Below are positions 9,922-54,193 of a DNA stretch of 64,000 nt, piece after piece; the stretch's first letter is position 1; each line of letters starts with the position of its first letter. The notes under the pieces are model-generated. The model was not told where the DNA came from, made no database searches, and saw nothing but the letters and a program-made list of their open reading frames with translations. The position numbers were made by a program, and so were the translations under genes. Origin of the DNA: an uncultured Pseudomonadota bacterium (GTDB lineage Bacteria; Pseudomonadota; Alphaproteobacteria; UBA9219); contig CAIPYM010000075.1 in the NCBI GenBank assembly GCA_903869345.1, positions 1 through 64,000 of the forward strand. The letters are read 5' to 3'.

Positions 9922-12900
9922 CTAGGGCACCCCGCTGGGCACTTCCATCAGCCAGGGACCGCACGTCCAGAGCAAGAACGATCGGACTCGGCGTGTTGGG
10001 TACAGGTCGCGCAAAAGCGCGGCGTACAGGTCCATTTGGCGACGGTAGAGGCGGGGCACGTCCGCCTCGGCCCTCGGGGGCACACGGTTGGTTTTGTAGT
10101 CCACAACCCAGACCTCGTCCGCGTTCGGCAGAACAAGACGATCCACCTGGCCCGCGACGTGGTCCTCCCCGACGCGCCCGATGATCGGCGCTTCCGCCAA
10201 CGAATCCGGGCCAAAGAGAGGCGCGAACGCCGGGTTGCGGAGAATCGCAAGCACCTCCCGCGCTGTCGCCTCACGCTCCTCGGGCGCGAGGCCATACCGC
10301 GCGTCCGCGAGGCTGCGCTGCGCCGCGTCTTCCCAACGTGCCTCCGGGATCTCGGGCAACATCTGAAGCAGCCGATGCACCGCAAGCCCCCGCGCCAAAC
10401 GGCGATCCCGAGGCGAGAGGAACGGTGGCTCGGGATCGGGCAACCCCGTCGTATCCCCTTCGGACTCCGAAGGCCGCACCAGCCGGGGACGTTCGGGCTC
10501 GGGCGGGGGCGGGGTCCGCGCCCAGGGGGGAAGGGGGGGCGGAGCAGAAACCTCCCTCCCCTCTCCTTCGGGACGCGTCACCCCGGCGAAAGCCGGGGTC
10601 CCGAGGAAGTCATCAACGCTCTGCCCAGCTTCTCGGGGTCCCGGCCTTCGCCGGGACGACGTTTCCTCTTCCACCATTGCCTTCGGGGGGCGAGGGAATA
10701 AGACCACATCCGCAAGGATTGCTACGGGTGTCACGCCCTCCTCCCCCGAAGACGGAGGGCACGGGTCGCTGAGGGGCGTCAGCGCCTCCCGCACACGGGC
10801 GTACCACGAAAGCGGCGGAAGGACCTCCGAGGTTTTTTTCCTTTTCGCCCATCCCGCCACCAGCAGACGGTCGGTCGCCCTGGTCATGGCCACGTAGAGC
10901 AAACGCCTGTCTTCTTCGACCTGGCGTTCCCGCGCGGTGTTCCGTAAATCGGCCACGAGCCCACCAGCTGCGTCGTTGGGCGCGTAAAAAGGAATCTCGT
11001 CGCCGCGCACAGGGTCCCGGTGCCACAGCCAACGGGGGAGTTTTTGGGGATTCGGCTCTTGCGAGGCGTCGGGCAGAATCACAAACGGCGCTTCAAGCCC
11101 CTTCGACGCATGCACGGTCGTGATGCGCACCTGCCCAAGGCCGGGGTCCATCTCGCGTTTGATCTCGTTCGCGCCGGAGGTAAGCGCCTGAACGAAGGCC
11201 TGAAGCGAGGTCGTGATGCGCTGCCCAAACGTCTGGGCGAACGCCAAAGTCTCGTCCACGGGATCCTGCATCTCGGGCCCAAGCCGCGTGGCCAGAGCGC
11301 GGCGACCACTGCCCTCGGGATCGGCCGGGCAGGGCTGCATCAGAATCCGCGTCAAGATTCCGAAAGGCGAATCCTGGTCCGCCCGCCCGAGGCACGCGGC
11401 GAGGTAAGCACGCATGGCCTCCATCGCCGACGCCTCCCCCTCCCGCACGGCCGCCGCGCTGAGGCTCTGCCACAGCGAGCCCGTGCGCCCCACCGCGAGG
11501 TGCATCAGCTGATCCTCGCTCGCACCGATCAGGGGACCCCGCAACACCGTGGCCAACGTCAGATCGTCATCGGGCAACAGCATGAATCGCAGCAGCGCCA
11601 AAAGATCCTTCACGGCCAACTGTTCCGTCAGGATCATGCGGTCCACGCCCACCACGGGAACGCCTCGCGTTTTCAGGGCGCTCACCAGCAGGTCCGCCAT
11701 AGGTGCCCGTTTGCGCACCAAAATCATCACGTCCTCGGGCCGTAGATTCCGCAAGGCGCCCGTCACCCGGTCCGTGATCCGAATCCCCCCGCGGAGCCAC
11801 CCGGCCAACGAATCCGCAAGCCGCGCCGCCAAAATCGCCGCCGGTTTTTCCTCGGCCTCGTACCCCGAGAGCGGCAGGGGGGACAGGTCATCCTCCGACA
11901 TTCCTGCCTGATCCGTGCCTTCGTCGTCCTCCCCCGAATCCTCGGCGGATTCCACCAAGGGCCAGACTTCCACGTGGCCCAGAGCCTCACGGCGAAACGC
12001 CTCGTGGTGGACGGGGGCGTGCGACACGCCGCGCCGCGCCTCGTCTGTCGCAAAAACGGCATCCACGGCGCGAAGAATAGCGGGGGCCGAGCGGTACGAC
12101 ACATTCAACGGCACTTCGGCGTAGCGGTCCGCGCCTAACGCCTCCAAGTGCGTACGGAAAAAGCTTCGCACGTTTTCGAACACGTCCGGGTCCGCGCCTT
12201 GAAAACTGAAAATGGATTGCTTCTCGTCGCCCACCACAAACAGCGTCCGGCGCGAGGACCTGGGCCCGCGTGAGCCCTCGCCCGCAAAAAACTCCTCGGT
12301 CAGGGCTTGGATGATCCGCCAATGCTCAGGGTTTGTGTCTTGCGCCTCGTCCACCAACAGATGATCGAGGCCCCCGTCCAGCTTGAACAGCACCCACGGC
12401 GCACGATCGGGCCGTGCCAAAAGCGCCCCCGCGCGCGCAATCAGGTCGTCGAAATCCAACCCCGCTCGCGCGGCCTTGCGCTCGGCGTATGCAACCCGCA
12501 ACGCCTCGCCCAAGGTCAACAACGCCTCGGTGGTCTCGGCGGTCTGAAGGTCCATGCGGCGAACCTGCCAAGCCGCGAGGCGTTCACGTTCGCCCTCCAA
12601 CACGTCTTGCAAATCGGGATGCGCGGTCCGCAACGCTGCAGCCCCCACCCGTGCACGCGGCGCACCCTCCTTCGTCAAAAACACCCCCGTGTAGGCTTCG
12701 ACATCCGCCCGCCCCCACGCGTCTGTCCCTTGCGCAATCCGATCCGCCGCCGTGGTGTAGGTCATGCGGAGATCATCGCTCGTGGTCGCCCGTGCCCATT
12801 CCCGCAGAGCGTCCTGCACCCGCGCCCAGGGAGCCGCGCCTTCCGCCAGCAACTCGCGGACAAGGCCCTCCTCGGTTGTCGTCGGAGTCAGGCCCCGCAA

Positions 12901-13605
12901 GAGCCCCCGGATTCGCGCCTGCACCCGAGGGAAAAAATCGTTGTCCGGGAAATCCGCAAGGCGCGAGCGGTCTTTCACGACAACCCGCAACAGGTCGCTA
13001 AGTTTTTCTTCGTTCAGGCGCGTGGCGAGCAGGCCGAGCGCCCTCCCCTCGCGGCTGTCCGGGTCTTTGGCGGCGCTGTGCAACGTCGCACGGAGGGTCT
13101 CCTGCCAGAGCGCATCGGCCTCCGCGCCCTCCAGGACCGTGAAGTGCGGGGGCAGGTTGGCTTCGACCGGAAAGCGGCGGAGAATCTCTTGGGCAAAGGC
13201 GTGAATCGTGTGGAGCCGCACGCCGCCCGGCCCCTCCAGCACCCGCGCGAGCAACCGCCGCGCCAGGGTGATTTGCGCGTGCGTCGGGGGCTTGTTTTGC
13301 AACCGCCCCAGGTCGTCGCTGAGCGATTCATCGTCGCACGCGGCCCAGAATCCGAGACGCTCCGTCAACCGCACGCTCATTTCCGCCGCAGCAGCTTTCG
13401 TGAACGTCAGGCCCAAAATGCGCGGCGGGGGAACATCCGCCAGCAACAACCGCAACAGGCGGTCGGTCAGCACCTTCGTCTTGCCCGATCCCGCCGAGGC
13501 CGCGACCCAGACGGATCGCGCGGGATCCGAGGCCTCGTGCTGCTTGGACGGCCCTGGGTCAACCCACGGAACCTCCTCGTTCAAAAGAACCGACCGATTG
13601 CTCAT
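9922..13605 (-). CDS. addA: Double-strand break repair helicase AddA (UvrD/Rep helicase and nuclease)
   Basis: VAASAGSGKTKVLTDRLLRLL, LLVDEAQDTNPEHWRII, HASKGLEAPFVILPD, C-terminal VDRLVLPNADEVWVVDYKTNR. Start placed at MSNRSVLL. Confidence 0.93.
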   Translation of the reverse strand: MSNRSVLLNEEVPWVDPGPSKQHEASDPARSVWVAASAGSGKTKVLTDRLLRLLLADVPPPRILGLTFTKAAAAEMSVRLTERLGFWAACDDESLSDDLGRLQNKPPTHAQITLARRLLARVLEGPGGVRLHTIHAFAQEILRRFPVEANLPPHFTVLEGAEADALWQETLRATLHSAAKDPDSREGRALGLLATRLNEEKLSDLLRVVVKDRSRLADFPDNDFFPRVQARIRGLLRGLTPTTTEEGLVRELLAEGAAPWARVQDALREWARATTSDDLRMTYTTAADRIAQGTDAWGRADVEAYTGVFLTKEGAPRARVGAAALRTAHPDLQDVLEGERERLAAWQVRRMDLQTAETTEALLTLGEALRVAYAERKAARAGLDFDDLIARAGALLARPDRAPWVLFKLDGGLDHLLVDEAQDTNPEHWRIIQALTEEFFAGEGSRGPRSSRRTLFVVGDEKQSIFSFQGADPDVFENVRSFFRTHLEALGADRYAEVPLNVSYRSAPAILRAVDAVFATDEARRGVSHAPVHHEAFRREALGHVEVWPLVESAEDSGEDDEGTDQAGMSEDDLSPLPLSGYEAEEKPAAILAARLADSLAGWLRGGIRITDRVTGALRNLRPEDVMILVRKRAPMADLLVSALKTRGVPVVGVDRMILTEQLAVKDLLALLRFMLLPDDDLTLATVLRGPLIGASEDQLMHLAVGRTGSLWQSLSAAAVREGEASAMEAMRAYLAACLGRADQDSPFGILTRILMQPCPADPEGSGRRALATRLGPEMQDPVDETLAFAQTFGQRITTSLQAFVQALTSGANEIKREMDPGLGQVRITTVHASKGLEAPFVILPDASQEPNPQKLPRWLWHRDPVRGDEIPFYAPNDAAGGLVADLRNTARERQVEEDRRLLYVAMTRATDRLLVAGWAKRKKTSEVLPPLSWYARVREALTPLSDPCPPSSGEEGVTPVAILADVVLFPRPPKAMVEEETSSRRRPGPREAGQSVDDFLGTPAFAGVTRPEGEGREVSAPPPLPPWARTPPPPEPERPRLVRPSESEGDTTGLPDPEPPFLSPRDRRLARGLAVHRLLQMLPEIPEARWEDAAQRSLADARYGLAPEEREATAREVLAILRNPAFAPLFGPDSLAEAPIIGRVGEDHVAGQVDRLVLPNADEVWVVDYKTNRVPPRAEADVPRLYRRQMDLYAALLRDLYPTRRVRSFLLWTCGPWLMEVPSGVP
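10576..10661. repeat. Composite palindromic repeat, family 1 subtype A, in frame inside addA
   Basis: CGTCACCCCGGCGAAAGCCGGGGTCC...GGTCCCGGCCTTCGCCGGGACGACG; interior matches the copy at 36168-36250. Confidence 0.85.
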
Positions 13606-13680
13606 GCGGAGGACTGTAGCAGAGGCGCCCGCAAGGAGACGAGTGGACGGGACTTTTTGAGGTTCTTGTCCCAACCCCCG

Positions 13681-13782
13681 TCGCGAGCGGAGCGAAGCGA
13701 TCCAGCTCACAGCCTTTCAGTCTAACGGAAAGAGTCGGAGATGGATTGCCGCGCCCCCTTCGGGGGCTCGCAAGGGCGAGTC
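13681..13782. repeat. Dispersed palindromic repeat, family 2
   Basis: gcgagcggagcgaagcgatccagctcac...aacggaaagagtcggagatggattgccgcgcccccttcgggggctcgcaagg. Confidence 0.75.
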
Positions 13783-36167: not shown

Positions 36168-36250
36168 CGTCGTCTCGGCGAAGGCCGGGACATCAAGATG
36201 GGCAGAGCGTGAACAACTTCCTCGGGATTCCGGCTTTCGCCGGAATGACG
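36168..36250. repeat. Composite palindromic repeat, family 1 subtype A
   Basis: cgtcgtctcggcgaaggccgggacatcaagatgggcagagcgtgaacaacttcctcgggattccggctttcgccggaatgacg. Confidence 0.85.
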
Positions 36251-36273: not shown

Positions 36274-36320
36274 CGTCATCCCGGCGAAAGCCGGGATCCA
36301 GAGCCGTTGTCCGTGACGGC
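36274..36320. repeat. Half copy of family 1 subtype B, overlapping the eipB-like 3' end
   Basis: cgtcatcccggcgaaagccgggatccagagccgttgtccgtgac; same interior as the reverse complement of 45733-45813. Confidence 0.8.
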
Positions 36321-45732: not shown

Positions 45733-45813
45733 CGTCATCCCGACTTTCGTCGGGATCCACTTTCCTCTTGTCACGGAAAACGGCTCTGGGTTCCGGCTTT
45801 CGCCGGAATGACG
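45733..45813. repeat. Composite palindromic repeat, family 1 subtype B
   Basis: cgtcatcccgactttcgtcgggatcc...ggttccggctttcgccggaatgacg. Confidence 0.8.
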
Positions 45814-53007: not shown

Positions 53008-53120
53008 CGTCACCCCGGCGAAGGCCGAGACGACGGAAGGGGAGCTCAAATCTCTGCTTTCACTCCACTTTCAACAGAGGAGCGCAGTGATCCAGCTCAC
53101 AACCTCTTGGGCTACCTGAA
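53008..53120. repeat. Truncated family 1 copy followed by truncated family 2 copy
   Basis: cgtcaccccggcgaaggccgagacgacg; then gaggagcgcagtgatccagctcacaacctcttgggctacc. Confidence 0.6.
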
Positions 53121-53911: not shown

Positions 53912-54113
53912 AAGCGCGAGTGTATCACGAAAAAACAACGCAAGAAATGTTATTTTCGGGAAAACATCTCGCGGATGGCACGAAGACTCGTCGTCGTATT
54001 CACTAACGAAACGGACGGCTCTTTGATACGAGCAACAGGAGAACATTATGGTATCAAAAAGACAACTAGCCTTGGGTTTTAGCGGTGTTCTGGCTGTCAT
54101 CCCTCTTTCCGCT

Positions 54114-54193
54114 GTCGTCCCGGCGAAGCCCGAGGGGTTCTGTGGAACCGTGCTCCTCAGCCTCTTGAGGTCCCGGCTTTCGCCGGAACGACG
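54114..54193. repeat. Family 1 palindromic repeat, divergent interior
   Basis: gtcgtcccggcgaagcccgagg...gaggtcccggctttcgccggaacgacg. Confidence 0.7.

Follow-up and report, generated by a model that had tools for sequence, protein, structure and literature searches.

Whether a palindromic sequence lodged in a conserved gene is an insertion, and whether it is translated with its host protein, is the question raised by addA in a small alphaproteobacterial genome (1.74 Mb, draft in 76 contigs). In the window, i.e. the whole 64-kb stretch of DNA that was analysed, addA contains an 86-bp, mobile-looking short palindromic element. It is highly likely that this element is a CGTC-tagged REP dimer that recently inserted into a disordered AddA linker and is read through as ∼29 unstructured residues. 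The insertion reading is based on the ∼84 dimer sites of the genome, the near-consensus sequence of the AddA copy, its absence from orthologues and the predicted disorder of the encoded segment.

Structure and distribution of the CGTC dimer

Judged by its sequence, the AddA repeat consists of two CGTC-tagged REP units joined head to head; such units form a superfamily that Di Nocera et al. 2013 (PMC3733652) described. Both units start with the CGTC tag, which shows conservation of at least 90% in its columns across 28 aligned copies (alignment A1), and both form an 8-bp stem with a 4-base loop (Table 1). The covariance model built from these 28 copies identifies ∼84 distinct dimer sites in the 1.74-Mb genome (E < 0.01), which are arranged head to head with the tags outside and with a spacer that is alignable in A1. 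The main ∼86-bp type accounts for 54 of the sites, each scoring at least 79 bits. A 21-nt CGTC unit pattern yields 239 matches genome-wide versus 2 for a reversed-pattern control. Among 38 relatives, no dimer scores above 70 bits with the covariance model, and weaker matches of a similar general build are found in 27. An Rfam scan of the window returned tRNA only.

Table 1. Coordinates of addA, CGTC units and related in-frame inserts (window positions unless a contig, stretch or residue is named)
Feature	Position	Strand	Basis or remark
addA, 1262 codons from GTG	9922..13710	-	TIGR02784; Pfam UvrD-helicase, UvrD_C, PDDEXK_1
CGTC-REP head-to-head dimer in addA, 86 bp	10576..10661	-	top covariance-model match, 109 bits; 3 mismatches to consensus
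First REP unit: tag CGTC, stem GTCCCGGC/GCCGGGAC, loop GAAG	10632..10661	-	sequence; alignment A1
Dimer spacer AAGCTGGGCAGAGCGTTGATGACTTC	10606..10631	-	alignment A1; conserved in part between copies
Second REP unit, opposite orientation: tag CGTC, stem ACCCCGGC/GCCGGGGT, loop GAAA	10576..10605	+	sequence; inverted repeat detected
Intergenic dimer copy of the AddA-type repeat, 83 bp	36168..36250	+	covariance model; sequence comparison
Single CGTC unit with CCA-type tail, adjoining the intergenic dimer	36274..36303	+	sequence; unit pattern
Further CGTC units, diverged dimer	45740..45813	-	unit pattern
Diverged single CGTC unit	53008..53028	+	sequence
Diverged CGTC dimer	54113..54193	-	40.5 bits, model R1
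addB	C34:14272-17295
CGTC dimer past addB	C34:14116-14202
In-frame copy in BioC-like methyltransferase	L004		domain/family support
In-frame copy in RNase G-like protein, among other repeats	L005 1024-2358, contig C76	-	domain/family support
PrmC: one CGTC unit in the linker that precedes the methyltransferase domain; CGTC dimer forming the C-terminus	L117/L213, contig C14, around 17440		domain/family support
In-frame copy near the RlmN N-terminus	L090		domain/family support
In-frame copy at the C-terminus of MsbA-like ABC protein	L104		domain/family support
In-frame copy in 681-aa membrane-protein-like ORF	L204		no Pfam hit
AddA linker inserts, window copy and G012	own residue ∼1022
G005 AddA insert (G005 has a further, short unit in its linker)	own residue ∼291
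G009 and G020 AddA inserts	own residue ∼758 (L052, G009; L053, G020)

The units vary in detail. A-T pairs occupy the first two stem positions in ATTCCGGC units (e.g. 36230–36250), and the two AddA units lack them, starting with GT and AC. The single unit that adjoins the intergenic dimer has a CCA tail; the tails of the main dimers are CTC or CCC. Many intergenic copies have a T-run just 3′ of the hairpin, and GTTCTTTTTT often follows the dimer on its 3′ side, resembling an intrinsic terminator. The intergenic copy in the window shares 83% identity with the AddA copy (E 1.3e-18) and ranks among the more diverged members of the repeat. The AddA copy itself has 3 deviations from the consensus over its 86 bases, which makes it one of the two closest of the 54 copies (median, 12), and thus looks young. 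Target-site duplication, a criterion of classical MITEs, gave no signal beyond permutation in the 54 copies (k = 2–9). The genome contains two PF01797 (Y1_Tnp) genes, which are not closely flanked by CGTC units, and a genome search limited to PF01797 found no cognate transposase for the CGTC dimers and no RAYT association. The notion of an element without stop codons in any frame was dropped, as 1 of the 54 copies is open in all six (3.9 open frames per copy versus 3.2 in shuffles).

The AddA copy could conceivably act at the RNA level, through a hairpin in addA mRNA that slows ribosomes between the domains or alters mRNA stability. The mRNA segment folds on the sense strand into a hairpin of −65.4 kcal/mol (z −6.4), but this energy follows from the palindrome itself and is not an independent sign of function. 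The terminator-like T-runs just 3′ of many intergenic hairpins would also suit an RNA role, but the AddA copy lacks a T-run, and AddA orthologues manage without the hairpin. RNAalifold detected no compensatory pair changes in alignment A1, and covariation therefore provides no evidence for such a role, which we consider improbable.

Reading frame and linker of AddA

The addA ORF scores 1056 bits against the TIGR02784 equivalog (addA_alphas; cut-off 861) and encodes both helicase and nuclease domains, which places the protein in the alphaproteobacterial type of AddA. AddB is intact (855 bits; cut-off 486.5). A CGTC dimer is located ∼70 bp past the 3′ end of addB, so that each of the two genes, addA and addB, has a dimer copy associated with it. 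The probable true start of addA is an ATG (MSNRSVLL) near codon 36. The start of the longest ORF (13660–13710, minus strand) appears to overlap another dispersed repeat, and the peptide SWIASLRSR at the 5′ end of addA recurs in several other ORFs of the genome stretches examined.

The 86-bp element encodes AddA residues 1017–1045, TSSRRRPGPREAGQSVDDFLGTPAFAGVT, with no stop codon in the frame used. Past the insert, the frame runs into an intact C-terminal PD-(D/E)XK nuclease domain (VDYKTN), and the codon-position GC bias persists (0.75/0.50/0.79). In an alignment with 29 relatives, the insert segment is a gap in 28, and the one exception has a different, unrelated repeat at this place. Between the TRA motif and the nuclease domain lie 169 aa, an outlier among 71 AddA proteins, for which the median is 121 aa and the linker length varies throughout. 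The nearest AddA is ∼50% identical, too distant to show the exact empty site, the insertion ends or the insert length modulo 3. The sequence-only reading had described an in-frame copy in a Pro-rich linker ahead of the nuclease domain of an unbroken AddA ORF, related to the intergenic copy in the window, and it had proposed the comparison with orthologues. Its coordinates for the AddA copy are exact, its peptide is correct to within one residue at each end, and the insertion, the frame, the relationship to the intergenic copy and the orthologue gap were all borne out.

Two alternatives concern the locus itself. A Pro/Arg-rich linker that expanded naturally in this lineage and happens to look like the repeat would be in keeping with the variable linker length of AddA proteins, but this reading is refuted by the nucleotide match, which covers all 86 bp of the element, the two CGTC tags included, and retains next to no probability. 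It is also very improbable that the copy is an artefact, be it a mis-assembled repeat or a decaying addA whose frame is open by chance. Repeat copies do occur at several contig ends of the 76-contig draft, but continuous addA sequence flanks the AddA copy on one 73-kb contig, the downstream GC bias and the conserved nuclease motifs are kept, and frame-preserving AddA inserts recur in other genomes.

In an AlphaFold2 model of the last 400 AddA residues (67-sequence alignment, mean pLDDT of 83), the insert (fragment residues 155–183) belongs to a stretch with pLDDT values below 50 and without secondary structure. This stretch lies between confidently predicted helicase and nuclease domains, the latter mostly with pLDDT values above 90. 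The ∼29 extra residues are probably a floppy, disordered linker according to this model.

The favoured insertion reading implies the following course. The CGTC-tagged REP dimer would be a non-autonomous repeat with ∼84 dimer copies, one of which, presumably copied from elsewhere in the genome, recently entered AddA, in the disordered linker that joins its helicase and nuclease parts. As the element is stop-free in the frame used and the frame continues, the cell should translate ∼29 extra unstructured residues. AddA would still be made and still work, and the insert would be near-neutral.

In-frame repeats in other genes and in AddA of related genomes

Most dimer sites lie outside conserved genes, as judged by domain searches of the stretches around the repeats. 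The genome-wide search for further in-frame copies, likewise proposed by the sequence-only reading, located several, including those in a BioC-like methyltransferase, an RNase G-like protein and PrmC (Table 1). The two halves of the RNase G-like ORF are separated by more than 100 residues that are made up, in one frame, of several different dispersed repeats: VIASEAKRSISQ-type, a single CGTC unit, a CGTC dimer and PLPLRERERVRVRG-type. Copies are also crossed by many long stop-to-stop ORFs; domain searches returned nothing for these, and they were set aside as spurious.

An insert-length analysis of AddA identified six in-frame palindromic inserts at three loops in 5 of the 19 genomes of the family (f1). 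The G009 insert and the G005 insert at residue ∼291 translate like CGTC dimers, the linker inserts of G012 and G005 are a different, CCCTCCCC-type repeat, and the G020 insert differs again in sequence. The repeats of G012, G020 and G005 (∼291), or their arms, recur elsewhere in the respective genomes. Two of the loops are each taken by different repeats in different genera. The loop near residue 758 holds two unrelated palindromic repeats in the two genera represented by G009 and G020.

LptD and NuoG were searched as controls in 22 family genomes. LptD is free of inserts in the roughly 19 genomes compared, and among roughly 21 genomes, G011 alone has in-frame inserts in NuoG. The G011 NuoG protein (L234) contains at least two CGTC-like inserts, VIPGREPAPSGG...GMPACAGMT and SVTPAQAGVPFG...GMPAFAGMT. 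With the ascertained genome itself left out, the excess in AddA (4/18) over the controls (1/40) is suggestive (p about 0.03, hand calculation), subject to the caveats that AddA is longer than the controls, that it was chosen after an insert had been seen and that the control genes number two.

These counts bear on whether AddA attracts inserts. In line with the mutator proposal of Di Nocera et al., AddA or RecB could be enriched for REP inserts, or could retain them, through changed activity, which we regard as unlikely. A somewhat more doubtful proposal is that AddA, the RecB counterpart of Alphaproteobacteria, is a preferred, recurrent insertion site, struck independently in several genera by unrelated repeats at shared loops, where the enzyme or its DNA substrates aid the spread of the repeats or where the inserts tune AddAB activity. 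Targeting is favoured by the recurrence of AddA inserts at three loops, by the unrelated repeat types at the same loops and by the difference from LptD and NuoG. It is also favoured by precedent, as many in-ORF REP dimers sit in repair genes, including recBCD and uvr, and two Xanthomonas species carry a REP at the same recB site (PMC3733652). The control comparison is weakened, however, by the caveats above and by the presence of at least two inserts in NuoG of one genome. Moreover, the other in-gene copies of the host genome are not in repair genes, and the window insert is located in a predicted disordered linker, as neutral tolerance predicts. The AddA inserts are most likely tolerated selfish insertions. 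The set of AddA inserts at matching loops makes the question of chance versus preference for repair genes testable.

Comparison with known palindromic elements

Palindromic repeats within genes are already known, for example in Rickettsia, and the AddA copy is a good further case rather than a new kind. New here are the repeated in-frame AddA inserts in one family, at three loops and of different repeat types, which take the known range of protein-coding palindromes beyond Rickettsia and the species of the 2013 survey, to AddA of a small-genome alphaproteobacterial family. A literature search found no paper on AddA inserts, and AddA is not named in the available portion of PMC3733652.

In that paper, CGTC REPs are described as mainly alphaproteobacterial, mostly head-to-head dimers and without a dedicated transposase, and in-frame CGTC or GTAG REP dimers within ORFs encode 20–30 aa. 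CGTC-1 units are characterized by an unpaired CGTC (or TGTC/CCTC) tag at one end and by A-T pairs at the first two stem positions. The host's dimer shares with the CGTC-1 head-to-head dimers described there the CGTC tag, 8-bp stem, 4-base loop and conserved spacer, as well as an alphaproteobacterial host, the lack of a dedicated transposase (for the host, within the PF01797 search) and the occurrence of some copies in frame in genes. In contrast, its main form has its own spacer, GCTGGGCAGAGCG, without a high-scoring match in the 38 relatives, and its tails are CTC or CCC, whereas the CGTC-1 tails are mostly CCA.

Like the Rickettsia palindromic elements, the AddA copy is a palindrome translated in frame within a conserved protein, and the elements of both systems occur in unrelated proteins. 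The host and the sequences differ, and RPE-1 is longer and belongs to another family. The sequence-only reading had drawn this parallel, which stands, and had found that the sequence looks unrelated, which does not, given that R. conorii RPE-6 is a CGTC-1 REP and RPE-4 a CGTC-4 REP according to PMC3733652; the relation is taken from the published classification in PMC3733652 and PMC10969869. The enterobacterial RU/ERIC repeats and Coxiella QMITE1 (PMC10969869, PMC2759123) are likewise short, non-autonomous repeats that form in-frame fusions, but they have other sequences, are longer and are of the MITE type. The Xanthomonas recB inserts (PMC3733652) resemble the present case in that palindromic REPs sit in a RecB-type helicase-nuclease, with roughly matching sites in several species; there the protein is RecB, here it is alphaproteobacterial AddA, and the bacterial class differs.
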